Source: Persicobacter psychrovividus | GTDB taxonomy: Bacteria; Bacteroidota; Bacteroidia; Cytophagales; Cyclobacteriaceae | Reading direction: 5' to 3' | Assembly (NCBI RefSeq): GCF_036492425.1 | Contig: NZ_AP025297.1 | Coordinates: forward strand, 1-64,000 | DNA length: 64,000 bases | Part shown: piece by piece, positions 14,094-44,617 of the stretch | How positions within the stretch are numbered: the first letter of the stretch is position 1 | Layout of the letters: each line of letters begins with the position of its first letter | The notes under the pieces: generated by a model | What the model was told of the DNA's origin: nothing | The model's database searches: none | The model's input: only the letters and a program-made list of their open reading frames with translations | Program-made: the position numbers and the translations under genes

Positions 14094-14111
14094 TTTTTAC
14101 TTTGATCAGTT

Positions 14112-15413
14112 TTATTGATTTAATTTTTTATGGCTCTGGTAACTTCTGTGAGCAAACAGCGCAATCACCACAAAGCATATCAGTGGCAACAGGAAGGATA
14201 AATTCACGGCAGGAAAGCCATTAATTACCTGCAAATCTATGATTGCCCCTTGCAAGGGCGGCATCAATGCACCTCCAACAATGGCCATCACTAAACCTGC
14301 GGCTCCCAGGGTGGCATCTTCTCCTATTCCTTCAAGAGCGATTCCATAAATGGTGGGAAACATCAATGACATAAAAGCCGAAGTGGCTACCAGACAATAC
14401 AGTCCAAATATGTTCTGCGAAAGAATAACACCGGAAATAGTAACCAAGGCGCCAATAGCAAAAACCAGTAACAACAACCTTGAATTGATGTACTTCATCA
14501 AAAAGGTACTCAAGAAGCGACTTCCGAGAAAAATCCCCATAGCCACAATATTATACATCTGTGCTGTTGCTTTATTTAATCCCAAATTTTCTGCATAGTG
14601 AATAATAAATGTCCAGCACATGATTTGTGCAGCCACATAAAACACCTGAGCAATCACCCCTTCTCTGTAGGTAATATTTTTGACTAACCGGTTGAAGGAC
14701 TTCAGTGGATGGATTTTGTTAACCTGCCCAAGTTGCGGCATATTTACCAGCGCAATGACAATCAACATTAAAAAAACCACTAGTCCCAGGGCGACATATG
14801 GATTTCGGATCACCATCAGATCATGCGCACGGATGACCGCTTTGGTTCCCTCATCCAGGCTCGAAAATATCAGCTCACCCGCAGCATTACGCTGCTTATC
14901 AGATTCTAAGGCTGATAATACAATCTGGGAAGCGACAAACATCCCCAGCAATGATCCCATGGGATTGAAAGCCTGCGCGAGGTTCAACCTGCGAGTAGAA
15001 GTCTCCACACTTCCCATCGATAGGATGTAAGGGTTTGAGGTTGTTTCCAAGAAAGCCAAGCCAAATGTGAGTACATACAAAGACAACAAGAAGAACCCAA
15101 ACATCTGATATTGAGCCGCTGGCCAGAACATCAATGCTCCTACCGCATACAATGTCAGCCCTAAAAGAATTCCTTTTTTATAACTGTACCTTTGCACAAA
15201 AAGCGCTGCAGGGATGGCCATCGTTGCATATCCTCCATAAAATGCAAATTGCACTAAAGATGCCTTCGCATTGGAAATCTCCATGACTGTTTTAAAGGCC
15301 GCCACCATTGGGTTGGTAATATCATTTGCAAACCCCCAAAGTGCAAACAGACTGGTTATCAAGATAAAAGGAAGAATATATTTCCTTTCTACTACTTTCA
15401 CTTCACTATTCAT
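14112..15413 (-). CDS. fucP: L-fucose:H+ symporter, MFS
   Basis: 433 residues with 12 predicted membrane helices. It follows the FucP pattern: [14 protein letters not shown] in helix 1, [18 protein letters not shown] in helix 2, [25 protein letters not shown] and the [16 protein letters not shown] stretch of helix 5. It moves L-fucose across the inner membrane with protons. It overlaps the upstream fucU gene by 8 bp, so translation is coupled. Related Bacteroidota permeases carry other hexoses, but the neighbours make fucose the clear choice. Confidence 0.92.
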
Positions 15414-15864
15414 AACTTTCGGCCTTTAGGGTGAAAACTGGAGTAACTCCTTTTTTCAGAATAATATTACCATACTTTGCCAACTCGCCCGTTATGACAA
15501 TCGCAGCGACACCTTCGACTCTTTTATAAAAGTCGAACCGTTCCATCTTTTGAATTTTAAAATCCTCAGAGGTCACCGTTTCCATACTTTTTCGGTAACG
15601 AAACTCGACTAATGGATCTAAGGTATCTCCGGCAACGGCATCCATCATCACCAATGGAAATTCCGCATATTGATCCAACTCAAAAAGTGGCAAAATGCCC
15701 AACATTAAATCATCGATGTTGATTCCGTCAGCACGTAAGACCTTGGTTTTATAATTCAGCGACGGAAAATGAGCATCGGCAAGTAATATCTCGTCGCCGT
15801 GTCCCATTTCACACAAAACCGAAAGTAACTCAGGGCTAAGAAGAGGTGAAATTCCTTTTAACAT
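15406..15864 (-). CDS. fucU: L-fucose mutarotase
   Basis: 152 residues of the RbsD/FucU fold. It opens [20 protein letters not shown], followed by [15 protein letters not shown] with the family His and Asp, and includes [13 protein letters not shown]. It interconverts the alpha and beta anomers of L-fucose so the isomerase receives the right form. The start overlaps the fucK stop by 7 bp and the end overlaps fucP by 8 bp, so it is embedded in the operon. Confidence 0.94.
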
Positions 15865-17354
15865 GTCGTATGCTTTGAATGAACACTTTTTAATTGCAGA
15901 TAATCTTGATACAACTGTTCGTAAATCCTGCTATTTGCTGACGGATAAACAACCTTTGCATTGTATGGAATATGCTTTCTTGCTTCTTCCGGAGAATCAT
16001 ATAATCCCGCTCCCGCAAAAACAAACATCGAAGCCCCCAGTACCGTGGTCTCTTTTTGGTCAATCAGCTGTATTGGCACCTGACAAATATCAGCTCGCAA
16101 TTGGTTCCATAATCGGTTCTTTGAACCACCACCAACGCAAATGATTCTTTCTGCATTGAAGGCTCCTGCGGATTCTAAAGCCTCAAGTCCTTCTCTGAGC
16201 CTAAAAGCAAGGCTTTCGAGAAAAGCACGATAAATCTGCCCGCGCCTCGTTCCGATAGACAAGCCTTTTATGAGCCCCAAATTGGGACTACTTCCATCTT
16301 CATAAAAGGTGGCATCAACCTGTACACCTTCCGCTCCGGGACACTCCAATTCCGCATCCCTGATCATTTTTTCATAACGATCGTCCCCTTGATAGTCACG
16401 ATAAAAATACTTGGCAAACCACTCCAAAACTCCTGAGCCCAACCAATTTTGTCCGATATTGTAGACACCGGATATGGCGTCAAATTCTGTGGTGATATTT
16501 TTAACAAACTCCGAAGAAGTCAGCGAAAACGCATTGCTTCTTGTCATCAAAATCTCCCAAGTACCAGAACTCAAAACCGGCTGATTTAATTCTGCTCCTG
16601 AACCAAAAATAGCAAACTGAGTGTCATGTCCAGCCAAAAAGGTTTTTGTCCCTTCAGGAATACCTGTTTGTGCTGAAGCGAGGAGTTGTACTTCACCTGC
16701 CAAGCTTCCAGGTTCTTCCACTTTACCAAAAACATCCTGTGACAGTGGAATGTGGGACAACAATTTTTCTGACAGATTTCGAGTATTGATATCAGAGACC
16801 ATTGAGGTCCCCACCATGGTGGCCTCATTCATAAAGGCTCCAGTCAATTTATTCACCAAAAGTGATGGGATAAACAAAAACCGGTGCGCTTGATCGATCA
16901 CTTCAGGTTTATTTTCCCTGAACCAAATTAATTTATTTATAGTATTGAAGGCGTAAGGAAAAACACCACTTGTTTTATATAATTCCGCCATAGGCATATA
17001 AGCCTCGATATTGGCCATTATCGCATTGGTGCGCTCACACTGCCAAGAGATTACCGGGTAAAGCATCTCTCCATGTTCGTTTACAAATGTTCCATCAACA
17101 CCAAAAGTAGTCACCGTAACGCCGGCAATCCGATCTGGGTCTACGCCATCCATTACTATACGGGAACATTCACACAGTTTATCCCACAGCTTTTCTAAAT
17201 CCCAAATGCGACCTCCCACGCATTGGTGATCTTCATCAGTTTGATTAGGCATCGAATGACTGCCCACCACGCCACCAACTTTGTTGATGGCGATTACTCG
17301 GACATTAGTGGCGCCGCAATCAAAAACTATTGCAATATCTTTGTCTTGCATCAT
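15858..17354 (-). CDS. fucK: L-fuculokinase
   Basis: 498 residues, FGGY sugar kinase. The N-terminal phosphate-binding loop reads [15 protein letters not shown]. Blocks shared with E. coli FucK include [51 protein letters not shown] and, near the C-terminus, [20 protein letters not shown]. It phosphorylates L-fuculose to L-fuculose 1-phosphate in the cytoplasm. The start is one of two adjacent ATGs (17354 or 17351). It lies 64 bp after fucI and overlaps fucU. Rhamnulokinase is the main alternative, but the DCGATNVR form and the neighbours favour FucK. Confidence 0.95.
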
Positions 17355-17418
17355 AAAAAATTAAAAAAGGCGTTAAAAAAATGCTCAGCAGGTTTATAGA
17401 ATATTAAAGCTCAACATC

Positions 17419-19206
17419 TTACCCCATCCCATACAATGAACCATAAGTTGAACATGCTCTGTAATCTGCTCCCTCCTGATCCTCACCAAAAGCTGACCAG
17501 GCACTTGGACGAAAAACTTTTTCCGCATCAACATTGTGCATATTTACCGGAATCCGTAACATGGACGCAAGGGTAATTAAATCCGCTCCGATATGCCCGT
17601 AACTAATGGCTCCATGATTTGCTCCCCAGTTCGCCATCACGGTATATACATCTTTAAAAGCCCCTTCTCCGGTAGTTTTAGGCACAAACCAGGTGGTAGG
17701 CCAAGTAGGATTGGTTCTTTCATCCAAAATTTTGTGAACATTTTCAGGTAACTCAACCGTCCAGCCCTCAGCAATTTGGAGTACAGGCCCGAGCCCTTTG
17801 ACTAAATTTACCCGACACATGGTTACCGGCATTTGCCCTTGGGTTTTAAATAAGGAAGAAAACCCCCCTCCTCTAAAATATCCTCGGTCTGCGGGAGGCC
17901 AAACAGTATTGTCCAAACATTGCTGTGCCTCTGCCTCAGAAATTTCCCAATGAGGCTTCATCGCCGGCTCTCCTGCCGCATTTCGCTGTTGTGCTGTAGC
18001 ATCCAGCGTAGTAGAGCCTGAATTAATCAGGTGAATCACACCCTCTTTAGCGATTCCCGAAAGTGATTGACCTGTAACGCGCTTAACTGCTTCCGGGCTC
18101 CAATAAGTTCTAACATCTGAAAAGATTTGAGCTGTATTTGTTAACAGGTGACCAAACAACATCGACACGCCATTTAAACAGTCATTCTCTGTGGCAAAAA
18201 CAAAAGCCTGTCGGATGCCATTCCAATCAAAAGACGAATTTAAAATAGCTTCCGTAAAATCAGCATTAGGCTTATAATCTGTCCATTGGCGCTGCCCCTG
18301 GAAGCCTCCAAAAAGTGCATTACGGCCCAAGCCTTCCTCACGAAATCCCTTCTCTACCAATCGCTCATTACCAATCATCATATCACGGCAGATGAGGGTC
18401 ATTTTAATCACCGTTTCCCATTCTAACTGCTTTTGAGCCTCATCAACCTGCTCTTCTTTTTTATTGATATCCTCTCCCTGTCGGCAATTTTGCTTGGTCC
18501 ATGCCAATGCTTTTTGGTATTCGTCTTGATCATAAATACCTTCATCGATACGGCGAAGGATTTCTACAGACTCGACAAACTCAGTCCGAACGCCCAGATA
18601 ATCTTGCAAAAAATTCACATCAACCATTGAGCCCGCAATCCCCATGCTACTGTACCCAATAGACAAATAGGATTTATCTTTCATTTGTGCCACCGCAAGT
18701 GCCGACTTCACAAATCTTAATACTTTTTCCTGTACATCCGCTGGAATACAAGTATCACCGGCGTCCTGCACATCGCGGCCATAAATTCCAAAAGTAGGTA
18801 AGCCCTTTTGCGTATAGCCAGCTAATGCCGCCGCCAGATAAACAGCCCCGGGGCGCTCGGTACCATTAAATCCCCATACCGCTTTCGGCATTAACGGATC
18901 AGTATCCATCACCTCCGTACCATAACACCAACACGGTGTAACCGTCAGTGAAACTCCAACCCCTTCTTTTCTGAATTTCTCAGCACAAGCCGCTGCTTCA
19001 GCATTTCCGCCAATACAGGTATCAGCAATAACACACTCAACAAAATCGCCATTAGGAAACCGCAAGTTTTCAGAAATAAAGGAAGCGGCAGCATTTGCCA
19101 ATGCCATTACCTGATCTTCCAAAGATTCTCTTACTCCGTTTTCTCTTCCATCAATTACTGGTCGAATTCCTACTTTAGGAACATTACCTATATTTCGGTT
19201 AGACAT
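17419..19206 (-). CDS. fucI: L-fucose isomerase
   Basis: 595 residues, about the length of E. coli FucI (591) and visibly similar throughout: [156 protein letters not shown] and [20 protein letters not shown]. It is a manganese enzyme that converts L-fucose to L-fuculose. It is the first gene of the operon fucI-fucK-fucU-fucP-aldolase-GH88. The 415-bp gap upstream should contain the promoter. Confidence 0.97.
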
Positions 19207-19622: not shown

Positions 19623-21419
19623 TTAAGAACCAACCACCTTCTCTATATAAACATAATAGGCTGGATGAACTCTGCCCAAATCATCTATGATCTCAGCCTC
19701 AAAATCGTACTTTCCAACCGGTACCTTGCAGGTGAATGTTACCTGTTGATCATCTGCTGCAATTTTTTCTGACTTGGTAATGCCTGCTACATACATGCGG
19801 GCCTCTGCAAAATTATTTTTTGTGCTTGCTGGAGCCGTTTTATCCAATTCTTCCCTATGCGGTTGTGCCGGAAATACGGCGTTAAAACCCAAATTACTCT
19901 CCTTCGGAAATCTTCGTAATGTAATATTGTAAGTACCTGTTTCTACGAACTCAATTTTCCATTTCCCCGCAGCCTGTTTTCCTTCAATTGCTCCATTCTG
20001 ATGCCATACGTCGTAATATCTGCCAGTCAGTAAATCATGGGAGGAAATTTTGGTGGGATTTTCATATGGGGTACCCACCTTTATGTAGGCATATTTTTGA
20101 TCTGCCCCCTCATCAATAAAGGACTGCCACCAACGCTCATAGCCTTGCTGTAACCTTCCTGCGACTTCGGGATGTTGTTCAATGACATTCACCTTTTGTC
20201 CTCGGTCTTGATCCATATCATATAGCTTTGTCCCATCGATCAGCCTCCAGCGTTCATCCATGACGGTATATTGTTTATACTTGATCAGGTTTTGTTCCCT
20301 TTGGGTATCCATATATAAAATACGGTTGTCCCACTGATAATCTTCTGAGGTTAATAGCGGTTTGAAGCTTTTGCCATCAAGCTTCTTTGAGGGGTTGAAA
20401 TCCAAACCCAAAAGATCAGCCAAGGTGGGTAAAAGGTCATAATGCGCTGTCAATTGATCAATATCTTTCCCCCCTGTGATTTGCCCATCGGGCCATCGTA
20501 TAAAAAACGGTACACGGTGTCCTCCATCATATTGACTTCCCTTTCCACCTTTTAAGCCGGCATTATAGACGTTTTTACCTGCTGATGTTCCATTATCAGT
20601 GGTGAAAATCACAATGGTGTTTTCCTTGATATTCAAGGCTTCAAGGGTTTGTTCAAGCCGATTGAAGTTATCGTCAATATTGGAAATCATCCCATAAAAC
20701 CTGCGGCACCTCGGATGAATATCCTCAAATTTTTTCCCTTGATACAAGTCAATATATTGGGTGGGCAGATTGTATGGAGCATGCGGAGCATTGGTTGCCA
20801 AATAGCAAAAAAAAGGCTGATCTTTATTCTCTTGAATGAAGTTAATGGCCTGATCAAAAAAGACGTCAGTGCAATATCCCTGATATTTTTCTGCCTGCCC
20901 ATTATGCATGTAGTAATCATCAAAATACTCATTCATCCAGTAGTCAGGGCCTTGACCTATTCCCCCAGCTCCATGCCGAACAACTTCATGAAAACCTCTA
21001 TCTTCTGGCCTATAGGGGTAATTATCTCCCAAGTGCCATTTACCAAACATTGCATTGGTGTAACCATTCTGAGCAAGCACCTGAGGTAGGATAACCTCAT
21101 CCTCTAACAATAATGACCGCCCTGCAATAGTATGATAAACATTGACCCGGTTACAATGCCTTCCGGTCATAAGTGAGGCACGTGTTGGCGCACAGGTGGT
21201 GGATACGTGATAGTTGGTCAATCGAACGGATTGTTCATAAAACCGGTCAATGTGCGGGGTCTTCACAAAGGGGTTTCCCGTACAACCAAGATCACCCATC
21301 CCTTGATCATCTGTAATGATAAAAATAATATTGGGCTTTTCTTTCGCAATCAACCCTTGTTTTCCAAGGAGCATGAAGGAAAGAGAAGTCATCATCACTT
21401 TATAAAAAATACGTTTCAT
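19623..21419 (-). CDS. Type I (formylglycine) sulfatase with C-terminal extension
   Basis: About 598 residues from the ATG at 21419 (a TTG directly before it is an unlikely start). Signal peptide about 1-25 (FMLLGKQGLIA). The metal site begins NIIFIITDDQGMGDLGC. The formylglycine motif is CAPTRASLMTGRHCNR, where the Cys of C-x-P-x-R is converted to formylglycine. GKWHLGD and VIFTTDNGTSAGKN complete the active site. After the alkaline-phosphatase-like domain (to about 450) there is a beta-rich extension of about 140 residues. The active-site Cys requires an FGE-type maturase not in this window. It removes sulfate from an oligosaccharide, presumably in the periplasm. It is the second gene of a sulfatase pair, 20 bp after its partner. 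Confidence 0.93.
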   Translation of the reverse strand: MKRIFYKVMMTSLSFMLLGKQGLIAKEKPNIIFIITDDQGMGDLGCTGNPFVKTPHIDRFYEQSVRLTNYHVSTTCAPTRASLMTGRHCNRVNVYHTIAGRSLLLEDEVILPQVLAQNGYTNAMFGKWHLGDNYPYRPEDRGFHEVVRHGAGGIGQGPDYWMNEYFDDYYMHNGQAEKYQGYCTDVFFDQAINFIQENKDQPFFCYLATNAPHAPYNLPTQYIDLYQGKKFEDIHPRCRRFYGMISNIDDNFNRLEQTLEALNIKENTIVIFTTDNGTSAGKNVYNAGLKGGKGSQYDGGHRVPFFIRWPDGQITGGKDIDQLTAHYDLLPTLADLLGLDFNPSKKLDGKSFKPLLTSEDYQWDNRILYMDTQREQNLIKYKQYTVMDERWRLIDGTKLYDMDQDRGQKVNVIEQHPEVAGRLQQGYERWWQSFIDEGADQKYAYIKVGTPYENPTKISSHDLLTGRYYDVWHQNGAIEGKQAAGKWKIEFVETGTYNITLRRFPKESNLGFNAVFPAQPHREELDKTAPASTKNNFAEARMYVAGITKSEKIAADDQQVTFTCKVPVGKYDFEAEIIDDLGRVHPAYYVYIEKVVGS

Positions 21420-21439
21420 CAATATAATTTTTAATTAAT

Positions 21440-22969
21440 TCAATGTGCTTTGCTGGCTTTTTTGTGCGCTTGTTCATAAAGCTGATCGGTGCGTTTACGC
21501 ATTTGCTTCAACAGTTCAAAGTAGGCTGAATTGTGCGCCAAATTATTTTGTTCGAGCGGATCCTCCTGCAAATCATATAGTTCCTCGATCACCGGAAAAT
21601 GCTCGTAATACCGAAAATATTTGTACCGGCCTGTCCGAATACCATGGCTTCGGTAGGACTTGTTGTTTTCAATAAGCCGATCGTTAATCAAATCCACCTG
21701 TTCATTGTATCGCTCGTTAAATAGCTGGGCAACGAACAGATCTTCAAAGAATACCGCATCCCGCCAATTAGACCGGTTTTGCTGCCCATTCATCAATCCG
21801 CTGAAATCTCTTCCCTGCATCGAAGCAGGAATTTTCAGACCTGCGAGCGAGAGCATCGTTGGGGCAATATCAACCGAGGAAATCAGTGCTGAATCACGAT
21901 AAGGCCGAACGGTTGCTCTGCCGTCATAGACAATTAAAGGGGCTTTAACGGACTCATCATACAGTAAGCATTTGTCAAATAAGCCATGCGCCCCCTGAAA
22001 ACGACCATTATCACTGGTATAGATAATGATGGTATTCTCAAGGAGATTTTGCTTCTTCAGATAATCCACCAACTTGCCCACCTGCGCATCAACACTGTAG
22101 CCCTGAGTGGCAAAACGGCGCACCAACCGCTGATATTTTTCCGGTGTAGAAGATCGCTGTTTGTGCAAACGCACACCCCGTGCATTTTCCCTGACCACTT
22201 TGGGGAGTACCTCATTTTCAACCACCCAATTATCAGGAACAGACATTTCAACACTTTCAAACTGCTCATGATGCGGCCAATAAATATGGCTGTCGTGGTC
22301 GTGTTTTACGGCATAAAAACTTACTGATAAACAGAAGGGTTGATCCTGCGGCTGTGTTTCGAGGAAGCGCAACATCGCCTCACCCGTCCTTAGGGTACGA
22401 CCCGAATTTTTTCTGTTGGTATCATAAATCTGCTTCAGCCCGGCGTCATTTTCTGGCCAAATCACATGTCCTTTGGTCTCGGTAGTTTCACTACCTGCAA
22501 AAAAATCAAATACCTCTCCCATCTGCTGCTTGTAATAATGCTTGGTGGGCGTACTCGGCCTTTTTGCCTGTTCGGTTACTGTAAAACCCACTTTACCAAT
22601 GAATCCGGTTCGGTAACCTGCTTTTTTAAATTGTGCCGGATAACTGTTTTGAAAGTCCTTTTGAGATAAGGTATAATCTGTTGGCGCTACAAAACCCACC
22701 TGATGGTTCGAATTATATCGTCCGGTCATCATCGTTACCCTGCTCGGCATGCAGATCGCTACGGCATAATAGGCTTTATCGAACACCACTCCTTTTTCTG
22801 CCAAAGCATCAATATTGGGGGTAACAAATTCTTTTTTTCCATAACACCCCAGATTGTCCCATCGCTGATCATCCGTCATTAAAAAAATGATGTTCGGTTG
22901 CTCCTGAGCGTGAGCATTGATCAGTAAACTGAGAAATAGAGGGGTCAATAGATATTTGATGACACTCAT
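21440..22969 (-). CDS. Type I (formylglycine) sulfatase
   Basis: 509 residues. Signal peptide MSVIKYLLTPLFLSLLINAHA. Metal-site block NIIFLMTDDQRWDNLGCYG; formylglycine motif CMPSRVTMMTGRY; later YKTGFIGKVGF-like (seen as YRTGFIGKVGFTV), VKHDHDSHIYWP and IIYTSDNGRFQGAHGLFDK. It belongs to a different subfamily from its neighbour at 19623-21419: the proteins differ in length and in the region after the motif. Two dissimilar sulfatases suggest sulfate at two positions or on two sugars of the substrate. It is first in the pair, and the GH31 gene upstream is separated from it by a strong terminator, so it needs its own promoter. Confidence 0.93.
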   Translation of the reverse strand: MSVIKYLLTPLFLSLLINAHAQEQPNIIFLMTDDQRWDNLGCYGKKEFVTPNIDALAEKGVVFDKAYYAVAICMPSRVTMMTGRYNSNHQVGFVAPTDYTLSQKDFQNSYPAQFKKAGYRTGFIGKVGFTVTEQAKRPSTPTKHYYKQQMGEVFDFFAGSETTETKGHVIWPENDAGLKQIYDTNRKNSGRTLRTGEAMLRFLETQPQDQPFCLSVSFYAVKHDHDSHIYWPHHEQFESVEMSVPDNWVVENEVLPKVVRENARGVRLHKQRSSTPEKYQRLVRRFATQGYSVDAQVGKLVDYLKKQNLLENTIIIYTSDNGRFQGAHGLFDKCLLYDESVKAPLIVYDGRATVRPYRDSALISSVDIAPTMLSLAGLKIPASMQGRDFSGLMNGQQNRSNWRDAVFFEDLFVAQLFNERYNEQVDLINDRLIENNKSYRSHGIRTGRYKYFRYYEHFPVIEELYDLQEDPLEQNNLAHNSAYFELLKQMRKRTDQLYEQAHKKASKAH

Positions 22970-25829: not shown

Positions 25830-28331
25830 TTATTCTTTAACCAATAATGTAAATACCTGACCTACTTCGGTTTCCACATCATACATGAAGCTATTTGGCA
25901 GCTTGAAGTCGCCAATATTAGCTGCGTCAGAAAGTAGCGGTTCTTTGATCGAGGGCTGTTTAAAAAATGGGTTTGTATTTGCGCCCTCAGCAATGGTTAA
26001 TTTACTGCCCGAAGCAGCTTTCAACTCATTATAAGCCCTAAGTCGGCATAATCCTCCAAGATGAGATTTTACCTTTACCTTTTTCAGTTGGCCATCCTCC
26101 CAGATCATTTCCTGAATTTCGAAGCCTCCCCGTGCGCGAAGTCCTTGCACACTGCCATTCTTCCAATTATCGGGTAGTGCCGGAATAAGGTGCACGGCCC
26201 CATCGTGACTCTGCATCAGCATTTCAGTAAGTCCGGAGGTGAAGCCAAAGTTTCCGTCGATCTGAAAAGGTGGATGTGCATCCAGCATATTGGGATAGGT
26301 ACCACCACCCTTAGGGGAATCTGGTCTTCCGACAAGTTTGATCTGATCGGTCATCAACTTATAGGCGTGGTTACCATCTAACAAGCGAGCCCAAAGGTTG
26401 ATTTTCCAGTTCATCGACCAACCCGTTGAAGGGTCCCCTCTGTAAATCAGTGAATTTTTTGCAGCCTGAGTCAATAGCGGATTACGGTAAGGAGAAATCT
26501 GATTGGAGGGGAACAAACCATACAGGTGTGATACATGACGGTGTTTATCTTCCGGGTCATCCCAGTCGTACATCCACTCCTGCAATTGTCCGTGCTGTCC
26601 AATTTGCATTGGCGCAAGTTGTGGAATGGTTTGATTAATTTTAGTAATCAGTGAATTATCAACATTCAACAACTTTGCTGCTTCAGCAACTTTTGTCAAA
26701 ATATCCAGCACCAACTGATTGTCCAATGTTGTCCCGTAAGCCTCGTTAACCATGTTTGGATGATGGGCTGGTCGGTTCTCTGGGGAGGTGGAAGGAGTAA
26801 TCACCATCCAATTGTTTTCTGGAACAGGCACAATGAAACTCAGGCAAAACTCAGCAGCTCCCTTCATCGCCGGGTAAACAGACTTCAGGTAATCAAGGTC
26901 TCCATTATAAAGATATTTCTCCCATAAATGCTGACTTAACCAAACACCGCCCATCGGCCACATTCCCCAGGTTGAGCCATCTACAGGACCACATATCCGC
27001 CAAATATCAGTATTGTGGTGGGTTACCCAACCATCTGCGCCGTACATCACCTTCGCCGTTTCTTGACCTGCGGAGGATAGTTCTTGAATCAGCTGAATCA
27101 AGGGCTCATGCATTTCAGGCAGATTTGTTTTTTCTGCCGGCCAGTAATTCATTTCTGTATTGATGTTGATGGTATAGGCGCTCTTCCAGGGAGGCGTCAA
27201 CTCATTACACCAAATCCCCTGAAGGTTGGATGCCTGCCCACCGGGCTGTGAAGAGCAAATCAACAGGTAACGGCCATACTGAAAATATAGCATCGCCAAG
27301 GCGGGATCTTCCGTGGTGCTGAAAGCCTTGATCCGCTGATCAGTCGGTAAATTTGCTGCTTCGGTTTGTCCCAAATCCAAACTTACGCGCTTGAATAAGT
27401 TTTGATAATATTGTATGTGTTCCTTTTTCCTCTTTTTGTAAGCAGTCTTCTGCGCTTTGTCGATATACGATTGAGCCAAACGATGAGGGTCGGCACTGAT
27501 GTCCTGATAATTAACAAAGTTAGTGGCCGTGGTAACATAAATCGTAACGCTGTTGGCATTGGCAACCGTTAGCTGTTGCCCATCAGAAGATACCTGCCCT
27601 CCCTGCGCATCTATCTTCATTCGTGTTTCAAACTTCACACGCCCTTCAATCGCTTTGGCATCCCTTGGCAGGCGCTTGTTTTTGTTGTCCAATGAATAAC
27701 CCGTCATTGTCAGCAGGTCATTTGCAGGGGTTTCCACCTGAACTTCTGCCGGTGCTGGTCGAGTAGCAGTAGTCGAAAAACTGATCTTACCTTTTTCACT
27801 GGCAGTCAAACGGATTGTCATCACCTGATCGGTAAATGAGGAGAAAATTTCCCGCTCATAGACCACGCCATCTACCGTATATCTTGTCTTACCTATTGCG
27901 TTTTCAATGTCCAGTTCACGATAATAGTTGCTGTAATGTGCGTGTTGTGGCATATTGATATGGATATTACCCGCCGTCTCATAGTTCATCCCATGCGACG
28001 TTTTGGAAATAAATTTATCGTTCGCCAAGCGATGCGCCTCAGCATATTGATCATTGAATAATAACGATCGCATCTGTTCCAATGCTTCTTGAGCCGCTGG
28101 ATTATCATTCCTGTGTGGTTTACCCGACCATAAAGTGGCCTCGTTTATCTGAATATTTTCATGATCAGGGATACCATATACCATTGCGCCTATCCGCCCA
28201 TTTCCGATCGGTAAAGCCTCGTTCCAATTATTGGCTGCCTTATCATACCACAGCTTTAACTGCGCCTGGCCGAATAAGGGAGTAAAAAGAATGAATAATA
28301 AAAAAATAATTTGCTTCATCAGTTTATTCAT
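25830..28331 (-). CDS. GH95 family alpha-L-fucosidase (or alpha-L-galactosidase)
   Basis: 833 residues; a start at 28319 (MKQIIFLLFILFTPLFGQA) gives a tighter signal peptide. The mature protein opens with the family pattern LWYDKAANNWNEALPIGNGRIGAMVYG and INEATLWSGKPHRND. Further blocks are NLQGIWCNELTPPWKSAYT, INTEMNYWPAEKTNL, HHNTDIWR, WLSQHLWEKYLYNGD, ITPSTSPENRP and DGNFGFTSGLTEMLMQSHDG. GH95 are inverting exo-enzymes, most often alpha-1,2-L-fucosidases. With six fucose-catabolism genes nearby, release of L-fucose is the natural reading. It follows a small frameshifted gene with almost no gap and precedes GH31 by 37 bp. Confidence 0.94.
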   Translation of the reverse strand: MNKLMKQIIFLLFILFTPLFGQAQLKLWYDKAANNWNEALPIGNGRIGAMVYGIPDHENIQINEATLWSGKPHRNDNPAAQEALEQMRSLLFNDQYAEAHRLANDKFISKTSHGMNYETAGNIHINMPQHAHYSNYYRELDIENAIGKTRYTVDGVVYEREIFSSFTDQVMTIRLTASEKGKISFSTTATRPAPAEVQVETPANDLLTMTGYSLDNKNKRLPRDAKAIEGRVKFETRMKIDAQGGQVSSDGQQLTVANANSVTIYVTTATNFVNYQDISADPHRLAQSYIDKAQKTAYKKRKKEHIQYYQNLFKRVSLDLGQTEAANLPTDQRIKAFSTTEDPALAMLYFQYGRYLLICSSQPGGQASNLQGIWCNELTPPWKSAYTININTEMNYWPAEKTNLPEMHEPLIQLIQELSSAGQETAKVMYGADGWVTHHNTDIWRICGPVDGSTWGMWPMGGVWLSQHLWEKYLYNGDLDYLKSVYPAMKGAAEFCLSFIVPVPENNWMVITPSTSPENRPAHHPNMVNEAYGTTLDNQLVLDILTKVAEAAKLLNVDNSLITKINQTIPQLAPMQIGQHGQLQEWMYDWDDPEDKHRHVSHLYGLFPSNQISPYRNPLLTQAAKNSLIYRGDPSTGWSMNWKINLWARLLDGNHAYKLMTDQIKLVGRPDSPKGGGTYPNMLDAHPPFQIDGNFGFTSGLTEMLMQSHDGAVHLIPALPDNWKNGSVQGLRARGGFEIQEMIWEDGQLKKVKVKSHLGGLCRLRAYNELKAASGSKLTIAEGANTNPFFKQPSIKEPLLSDAANIGDFKLPNSFMYDVETEVGQVFTLLVKE

Positions 28332-30170: not shown

Positions 30171-32678
30171 TTACTTTTTGATTATTTTGTAATTCCTTAC
30201 TTTTTGCCCCTCAACGAGATTTACATAAATTAGCCCACTACTTATACCACTTAGGTCAAGCGTTGCATCTTTCGGTAAATTTCTTTCATCCATTAATAAA
30301 ACCCCTGTAGGGCTATAAATTTTCATGGAGGCGCCGGAATTGTTAGATAAATGCAATTTATCTATTACCGGATTCGGGTACAACTTTACTCCTGTGAGTG
30401 ATTCAGCAGATAAAATACGCTGGTTGTTCTCCTCCAAATTATCTATTTCAAACCAATTAAAATTCCACCCATCGCGATTTGAATACACCCTAAGTGTATT
30501 TTTCCCTTCAGTCAGTTGGGCTACCGACGAAACTGTCTGCCAATTTTGCCACCCTCCCGTAGCACCAAATACCGCCTGATCTACCTGCTGACCATTAACC
30601 AACAAACTCAAATCGCCACCATTCGCCAAGCTGGCGATCCGATAATGCAAATTGTAAGTACCCGTTGTCGGAATCTCAACTTCATAGTCCATCCAATCTC
30701 CATCATTAATCCACCCAACATTTTCACCACCATCCTGGTCGGTTGTTGTCTGAGCCTGAATTCCATTCATTTGGACATAATCTTCCGCCTCTACCCTTAC
30801 ATATACCCGATCACTTTGAAATACTTGTACCTCTGCTAAACTGAGCGTTCCAGTGCCATTAATTTGGATCTTAACCGTTCTACCTGTAACACCTCCTGCA
30901 TCTACAATTAGGCTTGGGTCAGGTGTACCATTGTTATCTTGACTAAAAACAACATTTCCATTAATATCCAATACTGAAACGGTATAATTAGACAACCTGC
31001 TTTTGCAACAATTGTCCGTCCGGTTATAAATAACGATTTCCCCGACACTAATATTTCTCGCTAATTCAACTTGCCACCATGGGCTCTCGGTATCACCTGC
31101 TGTATGGGTCACAGAACCATGACTAAAATTACCAGCTGTATTGCCATCAATTGCATAAGCTGCTAACCCTCCATAGCCTGTAGAGGACTGACTTGCTGTG
31201 CCGCTAAGGGCGACATTGTAAGTACAGCCCTCTGTATTCAAGACCGTTGTGGAAGTACCATCATCGATCACTTCACTGCAACTTTCAATGGTTAGACCTG
31301 TGGCCTGATTCCCCACATAAACGGGGTACTTTGTATTATTAATAAACAACAAGTTATTTGCAGCATAATTTAATGGCGCACTGGTCGATCCTTCGAGGAA
31401 TCTGTGCGCCAACCGCTTTCCTCCCAAAACAATATCGATGTTATCTAACTGTGTACTCGTGGCATCATTCAATACCACTTCATGCCCAGACCCAGCATAA
31501 TATACTGCCGTAACTTCACCATCTAAAGGCTCTACAAAGTTATCCAAAAGAGTCAGTTCTATTTTTGAATTACTCCGACCAACATCTTCAGATAAAAGCG
31601 CACCGACTGAAGCATCCCCTTTACAATTCACGATTTCTGAGTCCCCTCCAATCCAATAAGCTGTTTCACAACCAAGCATTGTGGAATTTTCGACATACTT
31701 AAATCCCTGAGCCCAACCAATACTGACACCCGTTCGCATTTTTTCTACTCGACAATTTAATATCGTCGCATTCACAACTCCCCTACTATACTCAACCCCA
31801 TCAATAACGGTCTCACCGGCATTATAAGATCGAATCCCTGCTTCCTGCAAACTAAAGTAATAATCCCCTTGTACATCCCTTAAGTTGAATCCAAATATGG
31901 TTTCAAAATCTACATTATCTGCCGGGCTCCCGGTACCATCCTCTGCCAAAACTTCAGAAACCTTTCTCAACTCCCCCTCAACAAAACAGCCCTCAACCAT
32001 GGGGTCATTGGCTCCCTGAAAAAATATCCCGTGTCCATAATTTCGACAGATAAAGGTGCAATCCTTAACTTTATTAGAATTACCCCTGATCAAACAAGCA
32101 CTTCTCTTTTGGTGACTGATAATGTTACTTCCTCCCTTCCCGAAAATATCTCCATAACCATATGGATACGACCCTTTAACCGTAAAATGGCAGCCCTCCA
32201 AGAGATTCTGCTCGCCGTCCATGACAATATTTGTTGCCCTGAAAGAAGGAGCATCATGCTCAGAGCCATCATCCACCATCGTTAAGTTCTGAATTGTATT
32301 CTGGTTGCCAATGATTCGTATCTCGTGAAAATCAACCCTTCCTGCTGACTGAGCCGTCATTGTTGAGACATTTATGGTTACATCTGTGAAATCATACGTG
32401 CTGTTATTTCCTTCAAACAGAAAGAGATTATACGTATTCCCAAGATGCTCAGATCCCGACCAATAACTCCCAATGCGACCGTCGATAACATCATCAGCGG
32501 TAACAGCATAGGTGCCCGGAGCCAGCTTAACACTTACATTACTTTGTTTCAAATACGGCTGCAAGTCTAAGAGTGAATTAACGGTAATTTGACCATATAC
32601 ATTCTGAGAAATCAGCAGTAAACAACAGACAATCAGAGTATAAAAGGAATTACCAAAATATTTTAAATGATCTTTCAT
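30171..32678 (-). CDS. Secreted beta-helix protein with F-type-lectin-like domain, CBM6 and T9SS domain
   Basis: 835 residues. Signal peptide to about 30 (ISQNVYGQ). Parallel beta-helix about 35-480 with the paralog blocks STYDFTDVTI, SYPYGYGDIFGKGG, SACLIRGNSNKVKDC, RNYGHGIFFQGANDPMVEGC and VEGELRKVSEV. A discoidin/F-type-lectin-like domain at about 487-622 (YNVALSGTASQSS, AIDGNTAGNFSHGSVTHT, PWWQVEL, YNRTDNCCKSRLSNY) has His525, Arg553 and Asp555 close to the fucose-binding motif. A CBM6 domain follows at about 627-747 (VEAEDYVQMNG, WINDGDWMDYEV, GWNFNWFEID), then a type A T9SS sorting domain at about 762-835 (LYPNPVIDKLHL). It is therefore exported by the type IX system and probably anchored or released at the surface. 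Fucose-binding by the lectin-like domain is inferred; the beta-helix activity is unknown. Confidence 0.87.
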   Translation of the reverse strand: MKDHLKYFGNSFYTLIVCCLLLISQNVYGQITVNSLLDLQPYLKQSNVSVKLAPGTYAVTADDVIDGRIGSYWSGSEHLGNTYNLFLFEGNNSTYDFTDVTINVSTMTAQSAGRVDFHEIRIIGNQNTIQNLTMVDDGSEHDAPSFRATNIVMDGEQNLLEGCHFTVKGSYPYGYGDIFGKGGSNIISHQKRSACLIRGNSNKVKDCTFICRNYGHGIFFQGANDPMVEGCFVEGELRKVSEVLAEDGTGSPADNVDFETIFGFNLRDVQGDYYFSLQEAGIRSYNAGETVIDGVEYSRGVVNATILNCRVEKMRTGVSIGWAQGFKYVENSTMLGCETAYWIGGDSEIVNCKGDASVGALLSEDVGRSNSKIELTLLDNFVEPLDGEVTAVYYAGSGHEVVLNDATSTQLDNIDIVLGGKRLAHRFLEGSTSAPLNYAANNLLFINNTKYPVYVGNQATGLTIESCSEVIDDGTSTTVLNTEGCTYNVALSGTASQSSTGYGGLAAYAIDGNTAGNFSHGSVTHTAGDTESPWWQVELARNISVGEIVIYNRTDNCCKSRLSNYTVSVLDINGNVVFSQDNNGTPDPSLIVDAGGVTGRTVKIQINGTGTLSLAEVQVFQSDRVYVRVEAEDYVQMNGIQAQTTTDQDGGENVGWINDGDWMDYEVEIPTTGTYNLHYRIASLANGGDLSLLVNGQQVDQAVFGATGGWQNWQTVSSVAQLTEGKNTLRVYSNRDGWNFNWFEIDNLEENNQRILSAESLTGVKLYPNPVIDKLHLSNNSGASMKIYSPTGVLLMDERNLPKDATLDLSGISSGLIYVNLVEGQKVRNYKIIKK

Positions 32679-39666: not shown

Positions 39667-40656
39667 TTAAAATTGTTCTTTCAAGTGATTTAAAAGGCTT
39701 TCCATTTCCTTGAGTTGTTTTTCAGCCTGCTCAATAACGGTCTGCCGGTCCTCTATACTTGCCTGCTTTAAGGCTTTCAGGAAACTCTTATCTGTAAATG
39801 CCTTGGCGGGACGTTCGAAGGTCTTTACAAATTTATCAAAAACAGGAATGACCGATGAGGTTTTGGCTTTGCCTGATTTTGTTGTGGCCTTGCTTGTCAT
39901 TGGAGACTGTACGGTCAACCATTGGTCAAAATTAAATTCATCATCCTCAGCAAGCAGCTTCCCCAAAGTTCTCAGCTGACCAATTCCCATATCAGCAATT
40001 TTTTGACTCCGTTCATCAAGCTCTGCCTTATCCACCGTTTCGGGGTGAAGGAGAATATGCATATATGCGGCATCCTTTTTGGAAAGAAAATCAATCGCCA
40101 CATAAAGCATCTTGTCGTTTCTAAGCGTTCGATCTGTTACCGAAAACATCGCCGAAATAACCTTTGCGGCCTCTTGGGTTTCCTTTTTCAGCTCTTCTGC
40201 ATAGCGTCTTCCTCGAAGGAAAGAAGCAAAAACGATATTGATGTTACGTCTGCCTAATTGGTTTTTAAGCATCCACTCCTGAACATCGTCAATATTGTCG
40301 AGTCCCTGGATCTCAACCACCGGAACCAGTTTTGTGCCTGCTTCAATAGCTGCTTTTCTTCTATGGTGCCCATCGATCAGGATTTGCTTGTCATCAAATG
40401 ACCACACTTTCAATGGGTCATATACACCATTGGCACGAACAGATTCCAATAATAAATCGAATTCGTTATCCGATAGGGGAGCGATATATTTTTCAATAGA
40501 AGCAATCGTCTCAATCGTATTGGGATTACTCAATTTGATTTTTTCCTGCAATAGATTTTCCTGCTGAATCGCTTTGTTCGTAACCGAGGGATGCGAAATC
40601 GCTCCGCTGCCGTTCGGACGATTCGGCCGAAGGGGTCTGTTTGGAATTTTAGCCAT
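39667..40656 (-). CDS. parB: ParB-family partition protein
   Basis: 329 residues. ParB/Srx-like domain about 50-130: SIEKYIAPLSDNEFDLLLES, NGVYDPLKVWSFDDKQILID, GHHRRKAAIEAG (the GxxRxxA-type box), then WMLKNQLGRRNI. A helix-rich DNA-binding part and a Lys/Glu-rich C-terminal tail (about 290-329) likely used for dimerisation follow. It binds centromere-like sites and works with ParA to segregate the replicon. The start codon follows the parA stop by 1 bp, so the two are coupled. Its binding site was not identified; the inverted repeat upstream of parA is one candidate. Confidence 0.9.
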   Translation of the reverse strand: MAKIPNRPLRPNRPNGSGAISHPSVTNKAIQQENLLQEKIKLSNPNTIETIASIEKYIAPLSDNEFDLLLESVRANGVYDPLKVWSFDDKQILIDGHHRRKAAIEAGTKLVPVVEIQGLDNIDDVQEWMLKNQLGRRNINIVFASFLRGRRYAEELKKETQEAAKVISAMFSVTDRTLRNDKMLYVAIDFLSKKDAAYMHILLHPETVDKAELDERSQKIADMGIGQLRTLGKLLAEDDEFNFDQWLTVQSPMTSKATTKSGKAKTSSVIPVFDKFVKTFERPAKAFTDKSFLKALKQASIEDRQTVIEQAEKQLKEMESLLNHLKEQF

Positions 40657-40657
40657 C

Positions 40658-41719
40658 TTAAATAACCGTTTTCAATTCTGTAAATAAAGCCACGAAATCA
40701 TCATAAGCGGTCAAACACGTTTTTGCTTCTCGCTTAAAATTAGGCTCCAGTCCTTGGTTGATGCGGTGCCCGAATGTCACAGGATCATAGAAATTCTTGA
40801 TCGATTTCTGAACACCAGATAAATCCCTGACAATATTTTCAAAAGTAAATACGCCATATTCCGCCAACAAATCCTGTGTTTCCTGAACAGCAGAAATGTC
40901 CTCTTTCTTGCTCAATTTGATCTTATTGAAAAAGGCACCTCCAATTTTTAGTGATGGATTATCACTCTGCAATTCCTGCAAGTAAGGAATCGACTTCCCC
41001 AAACCATTCAGTGCGTACTTTCCGGCATCCAATGGCAGGAACACATAATCGGTCGCCAACAGTGGGGCATAGCTGAAAATCGTGCCGATATCCGGACGCA
41101 TATCTAATATTATATAATCATAATCTCGGCTACACCGTTCAATGATCTTCTTAAAACACTGTAGCTTCGCCATCGGAGATAAAGCCGGGTGATCCTTAAC
41201 CAATTCAAGCAATTCTCCCCAGTTGGGTAAAACATGGTAGTTTTCAATATCCTCAACAGGTTGCACAACCGCCTCTTCAAACAAGTTCACATCCACCAGT
41301 ACGTCCATCAACGATTTGACCTCTTCGCCAAAATCCTCTTTACTCAGCCCGTAAGTGGTCATCACATTCCCCTGGTAGTCGGCATCGATCAGTAATACCC
41401 GATGACCTTCATGGGCAAAAGCTGATGCCATCGAAATCGCAGTGGTGGTTTTGCCAACCCCTCCCTTTTGGTTCCAGAAAGCAAGTACCTTCGCAGGCGG
41501 ATTGATTTGATCGAGCAGTTTTGCTTCAGAAAGGCCGTAATTTTCCGCCAAAAATGGATAAATCTTCTCATATTGTTGCGTACTGATACTTGCACCTTCA
41601 TTGATCAACCTGTGCAGGGTACTCCGGCTAACGCCCGTTTCCTCGGTCATCACAACAAGATTAATGATCTTTTTCTTTTGTTGCAGCCACTGCCCAAGGG
41701 CTTTTTGTAAATCTTCCAT
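40658..41719 (-). CDS. parA: ParA-family partition ATPase with N-terminal HTH
   Basis: 353 residues. N-terminal helix-turn-helix region about 15-70 (VVMTEETGVSRSTLHRLINE). Deviant Walker A KGGVGKTTTAISMASAFA at about 90-110, Walker A' LLIDADYQGNVM and Walker B YDYIILDMRPDIGTIF. The N-terminal DNA-binding region is typical of type Ia plasmid ParA proteins, which repress their own promoter. Upstream lies a long inverted repeat that is a good operator candidate. First gene of the operon with parB. Confidence 0.93.
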   Translation of the reverse strand: MEDLQKALGQWLQQKKKIINLVVMTEETGVSRSTLHRLINEGASISTQQYEKIYPFLAENYGLSEAKLLDQINPPAKVLAFWNQKGGVGKTTTAISMASAFAHEGHRVLLIDADYQGNVMTTYGLSKEDFGEEVKSLMDVLVDVNLFEEAVVQPVEDIENYHVLPNWGELLELVKDHPALSPMAKLQCFKKIIERCSRDYDYIILDMRPDIGTIFSYAPLLATDYVFLPLDAGKYALNGLGKSIPYLQELQSDNPSLKIGGAFFNKIKLSKKEDISAVQETQDLLAEYGVFTFENIVRDLSGVQKSIKNFYDPVTFGHRINQGLEPNFKREAKTCLTAYDDFVALFTELKTVI

Positions 41720-41730
41720 ATCTTAAAAAT

Positions 41731-41845
41731 CAGCGGAAACCATTTCCGTTAATGAAACAATTATGTGTCAAATATAATCATAATAAATGCACTTGGAAAT
41801 ATTATGACACATTTTTGTTTCATTAATTCGATTCCATCGGAAACA
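41731..41845 (-). promoter_or_regulatory. Inverted repeats upstream of parA (autoregulatory operator or parS)
   Basis: Two 22-bp arms, 41749-41770 and 41805-41826, are inverted repeats matching at 20 of 22 positions (TTAATGAAACA and ATGTGTCA cores) with a 34-bp spacer. A smaller palindrome, CGGAAACCATTTCCG, sits at 41733-41747, 14 bp from the parA ATG. This layout fits ParA self-repression or a ParB centromere. Confidence 0.6.
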
Positions 41846-41878
41846 GCATTCATATCGACAGAAAACTTATTAACAATA

Positions 41879-42270
41879 ATGCCGTAAATTTTGCGTTTTT
41901 AATCCCCAACGTTATTGCCTGTGGCTGCGCCAAAATGATATAAAGCTTGCCGATGCCGTAAATTTTGCGTTTTTAATCCCCAACGGTCTTGCCTATGGCT
42001 GTGCCAGAATGATACAAAGCTCGCCGATGCCGTAAATTTTGTGTTTTTAATCCCCAACATTCTTGCTTATGGCTGCGCCAAAATGATACAAAGCTCGCCG
42101 ATGCCGTAAATTTTGTGTTTTTAATCCCCAACGTTCTTGCCTATGGCTGCGCCAGAATGATACAAAGCTCGCCGATGCCGTAAATTTTGCGTTTTTTAAT
42201 CCCCAACGTTCTTGCCTATGGCTGCGCCAAAATGATACAAAGCTTGCCGATGCCGTAAATTTTATGTTTT
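41879..42270 (+). repeat. Tandem 74-bp iterons, five full copies plus a partial sixth
   Basis: Copies start at 41879, 41953, 42027, 42101, 42175 and 42250, so the period is 74, 74, 74, 74 and 75 bp. Each begins ATGCCGTAAATTTTG, continues through AATCCCCAAC and TTGCC.ATGGCTG.GCC and ends AAGC.TGCCG or AAGCTCGCCG. The copies differ at a few positions only. The TGCCGTAA core is shared with the second array and with the site next to the rep start, so these are very likely Rep-binding iterons for origin function or copy control. Confidence 0.88.
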
Positions 42271-42550
42271 TAAAAAACATCGCTACGTTTTGAAATTTAA
42301 GTAATTTTTTGACCGTCAGCTTATTAATAATCTGTACAGTACCGTTAATGTTGGTCTTTTTTCCATCGCTAAATTTTTGTTCCCTAATGAACTGCTATAA
42401 ATCTCAAGGCCTATTATTTATAGCAGCTTTAATTATGGTTAATTTCAAAAATAAAATCAAATATCGATTTAGATCTTTTATTTCTTTATCTATTTAAGAT
42501 TTAGGCCCCTTGTAACTCTTTGATGTAGAATGTAGTACAGATGATTTCGC
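42271..42550. other. AT-rich spacer between the two iteron arrays (candidate unwinding region)
   Basis: About 280 bp, strongly AT-rich, flanked by iterons that point toward it from both sides. This is the expected position of a DNA unwinding element of an iteron plasmid. I found no consensus DnaA box in it, so the assignment is inference. Confidence 0.45.
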
Positions 42551-42555
42551 CAACA

Positions 42556-42703
42556 AAATTACGGCATTCAGCGACAGAATTACGGCATTCGCCAACAAAA
42601 TTACGGCATTCAGCGACAGAATTACGGCATATTGCCGACAAAATTACGGCATAACAAACAGAATTACGGCATTCTATTCTTAAGGCGGCAAAATTACGGC
42701 ATC
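42556..42703 (-). repeat. Second iteron array, seven copies at about 21-bp spacing
   Basis: The motif (A/G)AATTACGGCAT occurs with its ATTACGG at 42559, 42580, 42601, 42622, 42644, 42664 and 42694: spacings 21, 21, 21, 22, 20 and 30 bp, close to two helical turns. Read on the minus strand it is TGCCGTAATT, in the orientation opposite to the 74-bp array. The neighbouring bases alternate between two forms (GCCAACA and AGCGACAG) in the first four copies. Confidence 0.88.
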
Positions 42704-42835
42704 TTGATGGTGTCGCCGATATTCGACGGATAAATTAAGCAATAAAGAGCAGAATCTACCAAAAATAGGCAAGCTAAGTCTTATAATATCAGTGATTAGT
42801 GATTTATAGACTCCTAATCAGGTGACCAGGCCCAT

Positions 42836-43031
42836 TGCCGTAAAAAATGTGTTTTTGATACGATAGGTCTTATCTCGGCAGCCCGATATTGAATTATTTG
42901 TTTTTTAAATGAAGCCATGCCGTAAAAAAGAAGTTTTTATTCATTTGTTCGTTAAACCGACAAAATTACGGCAGTTTCACTTGCATACTATTTGTCAATA
43001 TGGTTATTTGTGAGATATTTTTATGCCGTAA
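42836..43031. promoter_or_regulatory. Additional TGCCGTAA sites in front of rep
   Basis: Isolated cores at 42836-42843 (+), 42918-42925 (+), 42966-42973 (-) and 43024-43031 (+). The last is 12 bp upstream of the rep ATG at 43043, where bound Rep would block translation-start DNA or the promoter. This fits the autorepression seen for Rep_3-type initiators. Confidence 0.65.
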
Positions 43032-43042
43032 ATCTGTCATTT

Positions 43043-44617
43043 ATGATTGAAGAAGATAAGTCCTCTGAGTTAGAGGTAGAGTCCATAACCTCAGACAGTG
43101 ACATCACCCGGTTGAACTTGGTGATTCGCAAAGACAATGAATACATTCAGGGGATGCATCACTCTTTATCGGTAATTCAGCACCGTATTATTTTGGATGC
43201 TGTCTGGAAGTCGATGCTGTGCGAGCAGGGGGAAATGACCTATGATTATCCTGTCGATGACGGTTTTCCTTATGTTAAATTGGATTTGAAATTTATCTCC
43301 GGTCTCGACAGTTTGCATGAACTTTCGGGAGCGGCGAAGCGAAGTATCCGCACCCAACTTGGTGATCTGACTCGTACCTCTTTCAATCTGAAATATCGGA
43401 ATAAAAAAAATGGCAAAGACTTTTCAGCAGATTATCCAATAGCCACAGGTGTGGTGGGTGAAATTGGTAGGGGGAAAAAGGCAGATTACAATGGAGGGGA
43501 TATTTATATCCGTTTGAATGAGGTGCTGATCAATCGTTTCAAGCCTAATTTTGATAAGGGGTATTTTACCCAATACCGTTTGCAAAATGTTTACAATTTA
43601 TCGAGAGGCCATTCGTGGGCTTTGTATGACCTTTTGCGGCAGGAACTGAATAAGCGGCGCGTTGCTTATGCGGAGCTTGTTTATGAACTGGAATATTTGG
43701 TGGAGAACCTGAGCAAAGGAAAATACCGGAAGAAAAATGGGAATATAGATTTTAATGCTTTCAAGACGAGGGTACTTTTGCCAGCGGTGGACGATATCAA
43801 TGCAGCGGATAAATGTGATTTGATAATTCGTGGCCTGAACTTCATTAAAAGTGGCAGAACAGTCTCGCAAGTGAAGTGGTCCATTGAAGATAAAACCTCT
43901 GCCATTGCAAATAAAGATGCGACGGTTGCAGGCGTTGAGGCTTTGGAAGTGCACCATAATAAAAAGGATAAATCTGCCGCAGGATTGCCTGAAGCCATTT
44001 TTAATCAGTTATCGCTTTTGTTTCAGGATGGAAATTATGGGCGCAAAAGTTTAACCAATAATATCAAGAGTTTGCTGCTTCAGCATACCGATCCGGAGTG
44101 GATTGTGGCAGTGTTGATGCGAATGGTGGAAAAACGAGACGAGATAAAGGCCAAGGCGGCATATTTCAAAAAATCATTTGCCGCAGAGAAAGCCATAAGG
44201 GAAGGTAAAGGCTTGCAAGGCCAAATGAGTTTTTCTCCACAGGAGAGCACTAAGGTTACTGAGAAGAATACGCCTCAAAATTATTCATCCACGCAAGGAA
44301 CCATGGAGCGTTTACAGGAGCAAGAAGAACGTGAACGTTTCGCGTCTATGTACAATGAAAAGCTGAATCAGCTGAAAATGAACTATATTTTTGAATATAT
44401 GGTTGAAAAAGTAGCTGATTATGTTGATTATTTACAAACAGACAGTCCTGTTTTCGAGCGTAAATTCTTCAGTGAGTGGGAAGCCAAGAAGCCCTCGGAA
44501 CAAGCTAAACGTTTCTTTGGGACTTGGTTGATTCGAAATTTTGGCACAGCAGAGGACAAGGAATTCCTGGCCGAAGGTTTGGATGGATTTATTCAGCGGC
44601 AGGTAGTATTGGCTTGA
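43043..44617 (+). CDS. Rep_3 (RepB)-type replication initiator protein
   Basis: 524 residues from the ATG at 43043; a TTG start at 42992 would place the coding region across an iteron and is less likely. Two winged-helix regions are visible: about 20-150 (ITRLNLVIRKDNEYIQGMHH, LSVIQHRIILDAVW, FNLKYRNKK) and about 150-270 (GGDIYIRLNEVLI, YFTQYRLQNVYNLSRGHSWA, LYDLLRQEL). This is the pattern of plasmid Rep_3 initiators such as RepE and Pi. The C-terminal half (about 300-524) is charged and longer than the classical initiators, with no recognised domain. It binds iterons and opens the origin. It is divergent from the parA operon, with the iterons in between. Confidence 0.88.
   Translation: MIEEDKSSELEVESITSDSDITRLNLVIRKDNEYIQGMHHSLSVIQHRIILDAVWKSMLCEQGEMTYDYPVDDGFPYVKLDLKFISGLDSLHELSGAAKRSIRTQLGDLTRTSFNLKYRNKKNGKDFSADYPIATGVVGEIGRGKKADYNGGDIYIRLNEVLINRFKPNFDKGYFTQYRLQNVYNLSRGHSWALYDLLRQELNKRRVAYAELVYELEYLVENLSKGKYRKKNGNIDFNAFKTRVLLPAVDDINAADKCDLIIRGLNFIKSGRTVSQVKWSIEDKTSAIANKDATVAGVEALEVHHNKKDKSAAGLPEAIFNQLSLLFQDGNYGRKSLTNNIKSLLLQHTDPEWIVAVLMRMVEKRDEIKAKAAYFKKSFAAEKAIREGKGLQGQMSFSPQESTKVTEKNTPQNYSSTQGTMERLQEQEERERFASMYNEKLNQLKMNYIFEYMVEKVADYVDYLQTDSPVFERKFFSEWEAKKPSEQAKRFFGTWLIRNFGTAEDKEFLAEGLDGFIQRQVVLA

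Follow-up and report, generated by a model that had tools for sequence, protein, structure and literature searches.

The window analysed here, 64,000 nucleotides of Persicobacter psychrovividus DNA, lies at the beginning of contig C6 (206,276 bases; genome 6.1 Mb). A preliminary description had grouped three of its proteins, here called P1, P2 and P3, as a three-member family of secreted beta-helix proteins. P3 (30171..32678, minus strand, 835 aa) is a predicted secreted lyase of the FdlA type, judging by its match to FdlA, its type IX secretion (T9SS) tail and its structural model. Its putative catalytic beta-helix domain (31242..32588; aa 31-479, aligned to 20-455 of PDB entry 7xzf) is followed on the same strand by an F5/8-type C, F-type-lectin-like domain (30867..31157; aa 508-604; PF22633, 4.4e-15), a CBM6 (30441..30791; aa 630-746; PF03422, 3.4e-24) and a type IX secretion sorting domain (30183..30383; aa 766-832; Pfam/NCBIfam). 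The PDB matches of the F5/8-type C region include the fucolectin-related protein 2j22 (2.5e-25). P2 (1406..3739, minus strand, 777 aa), likewise a predicted FdlA-type lyase, carries a PA14 domain (aa 569-643) and a T9SS tail (aa 703-772). That is, Pfam and PDB searches found the accessory modules as first noted. P1 (3..1055, minus strand) does contain the family's blocks, but the stretch originally listed is only the N-terminal 351 aa of a predicted 842-aa FdlA-type lyase that runs off the window and crosses the contig ends. Its remainder follows in frame from C6 position 206276, at the far end, to 204803, and the alignment to FdlA passes through the join. Nor does the family have three members: a fourth copy, P4 (1339 aa, three CBM6 matches), adjoins P1 at 203 kb of the contig. 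P2, P1 and P4 are three neighbouring genes on one strand, and a type IX secretion sorting domain terminates all four proteins.

Four sequence blocks had been described as shared, in the same order, by P1, P2 and P3. They are, and the same order is found in FdlA and in P4. In P3, the block SYPYGYGDIFGKGG (32130..32171, minus strand; aa 170-183) contains D177 and K181, equivalent to D137 and K141 of FdlA, and the block RNYGHGIFFQ (32016..32045, minus strand; aa 212-221) contains H216 and F219, equivalent to H176 and F179. A fifth block, E-x-G-I-R-x-Y, was absent from the earlier list and contains three FdlA residues, Glu236, Arg240 and Tyr242 (the last proposed as the acid); in P3 it reads EAGIRSY (31824..31844, minus strand; aa 279-285), with E279, R283 and Y285 at these positions. 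Since the four domains are 32-48% identical in pairwise comparison (468-510 columns) and each window protein matches FdlA with an E value of 2e-84 or better, the shared blocks are not due to chance.

The genes upstream of P2 and P1 encode a TIG-domain protein, SusD and SusC (3814..10702; Pfam). They are joined, all on the minus strand, by a GH88 unsaturated glucuronyl hydrolase, the expected consumer of the lyase products (12001..13263), by an aldolase (NCBIfam: rhamnulose-1-phosphate aldolase), fucose permease, fucose mutarotase, fuculokinase and fucose isomerase (13287..19206; Pfam/NCBIfam), by two sulfatases (19623..22969; Pfam) and by a GH95 protein (25830..28331; PF22124, 2e-178), a fucosidase family. 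The cluster also holds GH31, an aldehyde dehydrogenase and a KduD-like dehydrogenase that scores just below its curated cut-off. The GH88 protein, the only one compared in this way, resembles solved unsaturated glucuronyl hydrolases, most closely 3wiw (2e-87). No polysaccharide lyase family was assigned by Pfam in the 32 of 37 ORFs of at least 150 aa that were scanned, in line with the remark that the window contains no other lyase. Three ORFs (28492-29007, 171 aa; 38250-38840, 196 aa; 38821-39276, 151 aa) gave no Pfam match at 0.001.

Genes for a ParB-like protein (below the Pfam cut-off, minus strand), a ParA-like protein (minus strand) and a Rep3-type initiator (plus strand) lie at 39667..44617 and are of the plasmid replication type. 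The contig ends appear to join through P1, which is indirect evidence of a circle, and the contig has replication and partition genes of its own; together, the in-frame join and this gene content indicate that C6 is a circular 206-kb plasmid or secondary replicon. A gene for an AAA-ATPase-like and PDDEXK_9 protein (44775-46610) adjoins the initiator gene. Further along the window (46971-62426), a second polysaccharide cluster comprises a hybrid two-component regulator, GH130, an MFS transporter, SusC, SusD and a Laminin_G_3 protein, then an alpha-amylase family protein; the ORF 53357-55090 (577 aa) had no Pfam match at 0.001. Elsewhere on the replicon, a 1176-aa protein (C6:193520-197050; L012:3521-7051) matches Alginate_lyase and Hepar_II_III_C weakly in Pfam and nothing in a sequence search of the PDB. 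It is a second, unrelated lyase candidate, with 80% identity to a Persicobacter plasmid across the matched stretch.

In a sequence search of the PDB, FdlA was the match of P3 (E 1.4e-117), P1 (3.2e-112) and P2 (2e-84). Identity to FdlA is 57% for P4, 51% for the joined P1, 45% for P3 and 39% (38.5%) for P2. Homology extends over the whole catalytic domain in the window proteins; for P1, read across the contig ends, the alignment spans 27-470. The structure search proposed in the preliminary description for 30171-32678 gave a strong match to one solved lyase only: the AlphaFold model of the N-terminal catalytic domain of P3 (mean pLDDT 87.2) aligned in Foldseek with 11 FdlA rows at E values of 4.8e-40 to 7.5e-38 (TM 0.82-0.84 by query length, 0.92-0.95 by target length), and the next row stood at 8.6e-06. 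The P3 model thus shows a right-handed beta-helix fold like that of 7xzf. The lyase idea was to be abandoned if the proteins clearly matched a characterised family other than lyases; the match obtained is to a lyase. Since Pfam and NCBIfam recognised no named catalytic domain in the lyases except a generic Beta_helix (1.2e-05 in P1, 0.29 in P2), the preliminary description could place them in no family. A CAZy family number for FdlA, PL43 included, was not found in our literature search, and FdlA is given as unclassified in CAZy as of July 2022 (PMC9410043).

FdlA and FdlB of Flavobacterium sp. SA-0082 were reported as lyases in 2003 (PMC6267234), and FdlA was crystallised in 2022 (PMC9410043). 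FdlA is described as cleaving the Man-alpha1,4-GlcA bond of sulfated fucoglucuronomannan by metal-free beta-elimination, and a 232-nm signal and a mass spectrum identified its product as the unsaturated glucuronyl-(3-sulfofucosyl)-mannose trisaccharide (PMC9410043). Activity was almost completely lost in D137A, K141A, H176A, F179A, E236A, R240A, Y242A and Y242F; N243A was active, R272A lost little, H279A kept about 65% and Y322A nearly full activity, and Tyr242 and Lys141 were proposed as acid and base, respectively (PMC9410043). Subtracting 17 from the PDB chain position gives the FdlA residue number; with this offset, the letters of all 11 mutated residues came out correctly. In our alignment, D137, K141, H176, F179, E236, R240 and Y242 are kept in P1, P2, P3 and P4 (in P3 as D177, K181, H216, F219, E279, R283 and Y285). 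Among the positions that tolerate mutation, P2 keeps Arg272 and has Thr for Asn243, His279 is replaced by Trp in P3 and by Leu in P1, and Tyr322 by Val in P3. Lys, Arg, His and Tyr of the four blocks had been put forward as catalytic candidates. The choice was right for Lys and His, which correspond to the essential K141 and H176, but not for Tyr and Arg: those of the four blocks differ from the residues mutated in FdlA, where Tyr242 and Arg240 belong to the fifth block.

We conclude with considerable confidence that P1-P4 are FdlA-type fucoidan lyases (sulfated fucoglucuronomannan lyases), predicted to be secreted by the type IX system. FdlA homology, the fold of P3, the sorting domain and the nearby GH88 gene together support the earlier proposal of secreted right-handed beta-helix lyases that act on a polysaccharide containing fucose and uronate and have a GH88 partner. 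What does not hold is the idea of a new, unnamed kind of enzyme, as the proteins are homologues of FdlA and FdlB; in place of an unnamed lyase there is now a known enzyme family with structure, product and mechanism. By analogy with FdlA, the branched sulfated chain would be bound in the beta-helix groove and a basic pocket, the uronate carboxylate would be neutralised by Arg240 and His176, a basic residue would take the C5 proton, and Tyr242 would protonate the leaving oxygen, so that the Man-alpha1,4-GlcA bond is cut. The expected product is an unsaturated glucuronyl-(sulfofucosyl)-mannose trisaccharide, released without need for a metal, as in FdlA. Sulfatases, GH88 and GH95 would then dismantle it, probably in that order, and the fucose genes would use the fucose set free. 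The gene set of the cluster fits such a product, with removal of sulfate, unsaturated uronate and fucose and use of the latter; that is, identification of the family predicts what the whole gene cluster eats.

An alternative is that these proteins are endo-fucan hydrolases, or combine both activities, and cut fucosyl rather than uronate bonds. Recombinant FdlA and FdlB degraded fucoidans without a known Man-GlcA backbone and gave no 232-nm absorbance, from which cleavage of alpha-1,4-fucosyl bonds was suggested (PMC6267234). However, the later work on FdlA found the 232-nm product, the mass spectrum of the unsaturated trisaccharide and the loss of activity in Y242F and K141A (PMC9410043), and the replicon has a GH88 gene in the same cluster as the lyases. 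We weigh the 2022 mass-spectrometric product (PMC9410043) higher than the fucosyl-bond proposal (PMC6267234) and regard a hydrolase as improbable. Even less credible, to our minds, is a non-catalytic binding protein that has retained the fold: several binding modules are present and binding outlasts catalysis in FdlA mutants that have lost it (PMC9410043), but all residues essential in FdlA are kept in all four copies.

A further alternative concerns the substrate. One or more copies, P2 first among them, might use the same fold and chemistry on another sulfated uronan, which would be compatible with the sulfated fucoglucuronomannan lyase reading for the other copies. The four copies fall into separate clades, a division forced by the starred branches of the tree; P2 is just 38.5% identical to FdlA, and the accessory modules differ. 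On the other hand, the seven essential residues and Arg272 are kept in P2, and the neighbouring genes suit release of fucose, sulfate and unsaturated uronate. We consider a different uronan a serious possibility for some copy, if one that we would on the whole bet against. Under the preferred reading of all four as FdlA-type fucoidan lyases, the differences in binding modules probably mean that the copies act on parts of the polymer with different decorations.

Since flanks of about 6 kb proved too short for assessing a link between GH88 and FdlA-type genes, positions in whole records were used. In the short flanks of 72 relatives, tblastn found a sulfatase like that of the replicon in 40, GH95 in 14, GH88 in 3 and the replicon's fucose genes in none. 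The whole-record comparison covered 39 records with FdlA-type genes, namely the P. psychrovividus genome, one plasmid and 37 genomes hand-picked via the 72 loci. Nine of 150 PF07470 rows fell below the cut-off and were dropped, as was the P1 piece of the P. psychrovividus genome. The remaining 141 PF07470 genes were divided, with a split set after seeing the list, into 63 strong (4e-54 and stronger) and 78 weak matches (8e-30 and weaker); the window GH88 belongs to the weak class. At least 30 of the 78 weak genes (in at least 22 records) have an FdlA-type gene no more than 40 kb away, versus at least one of the 63 strong genes. Among the matches listed, 48 of the 78 weak genes had no FdlA-type gene at that distance on their contig, and four of the 39 records had no PF07470 match at all. 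The clustering points to a standing partnership of the weak class with FdlA-type enzymes, which in turn supports the lyase reading. That it is nearly only the weak class that clusters in this way (39 records, matches listed) is a side observation on the model itself: PF07470 may mix two functional families, presumably GH88 and GH105.

Two patterns, G[NS]N[SN]TYDF and PY[GA]YGD[IMA]F, served to collect relatives. Since both favour the Lys141 type, members without Lys141 are under-sampled. Relatives were encoded on 91 stretches, of which the best 80 were kept, equal to 72 loci. In total, 78 loci (72 from genome contigs, five of the near relative G008 and one plasmid) yielded 126 near-complete domains, 123 of them distinct, which together with the four of this replicon and FdlA made 128 rows. 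Only identical rows were removed, and a few rows may represent one gene fetched twice; the tree was built by a quick method and has several long branches. In it, P1-P4 stand in four separate clades: P3 with Reichenbachiella and a Puniceicoccaceae contig, P2 with Flammeovirga, P1 with G008 and Marinoscillum, and P4 with the Persicobacter plasmid. A recent tandem duplication as origin of the four copies is ruled out by this separation; with relatives of each in other genera, P1-P4 are old paralogues, and their age suggests different preferences. They are four natural variants with different binding modules, usable for making defined fucoidan oligosaccharides.

The family is rare, not widespread, in the phylum sample. 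Two of 395 phylum genomes matched (at most three candidates scored per row listed), the P. psychrovividus genome and one with a weak, short match (7e-07), and among 39 near relatives the P. psychrovividus genome and G008 did so. Outside Bacteroidota, the family was found in Verrucomicrobiota and Kiritimatiellota records. In Tamlana sedimentorum (L033:122-2131) an FdlA-type domain is fused to a GDSL lipase/esterase domain, with a sister row in L069.

The same 128 rows bear on the catalytic base. His176, Glu236, Arg240, Tyr242, Arg272 and Lys151 are invariant (128/128) and Arg198 is conserved in 127, whereas position 141 is Lys in 112, Ile in 11 and Leu in 5. Lys141 is missing from 16 rows, which derive from 13 loci, form two divergent groups and have Ser, Asn or Tyr for Asp137; each locus also has a copy of the Lys141 type. 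These rows require two changes on the tree, although they may have a single origin. Two of the proteins match FdlA in the PDB (E 5e-27 and 7e-36), and the modelled catalytic domain of one (mean pLDDT 82.3) has FdlA as its sole strong fold match (TM 0.77-0.78). Lys141 can therefore not be the base throughout the family, unless these branches are inactive or work differently. We suggest, tentatively and at a little under even chances, that the Lys141-less branches are lyases with another base or uronate, or that all members use a base other than Lys141 (Tyr242 in both steps, Lys151 or His176). Against this doubt, K141A abolished FdlA activity and left the active site almost unchanged (PMC9410043). 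Nor need an invariant residue be catalytic: Arg272 is invariant here, yet R272A is active (PMC9410043). Lys151 and Arg198 are outside the 11 mutated residues and go unmentioned in the main text of that study (PMC9410043). The conservation across 128 sequences thus questions the base assignment in FdlA, which deserves a retest, and draws attention to Lys151. It is this clue on Lys141 and Lys151 that is new here; the enzyme family itself was already known.

Among known enzymes, PL6 (alginate lyase, chondroitinase B) has the right-handed beta-helix and beta-elimination in common with the FdlA type, but its catalytic residues differ from those of FdlA (PMC9410043). Membership of PL6 was rejected: PL6 rows reached Foldseek E values of 8.6e-06 or weaker with TM below 0.5, and PL6 was not among the Pfam matches. 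With FdlA (AAO00510.1, PDB 7xz7-7xzf), P1-P4 share the catalytic fold (modelled for P3), 39-57% identity and the seven essential residues, and P3 and P1 also have its F5/8-type C domain and T9SS tail. They differ from it in their CBM6 or PA14 modules, in occurring as four copies per replicon and in the divergence of P2. Plasmid 4 of Persicobacter sp. JZB09 (CP012862.1, 395 kb) has at least four FdlA-type matches, one of them in a gene that pairs with P4 (support 96), and in the best matched piece, identity to this replicon's counterparts is 71-85% for its GH97, its heparinase-like protein and its aldehyde dehydrogenase. In contrast, a 41.8-kb stretch of that plasmid gave no tblastn match (E 1e-8) to the SusC/D, GH88 and fucose genes of this replicon; a GH88-family match lies elsewhere on it. 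Fucoidan-degradation genes on megaplasmids have been described for Verrucomicrobiota isolates (PMC8857213), so a fucoidan locus borne on a replicon of this sort is of no new kind.
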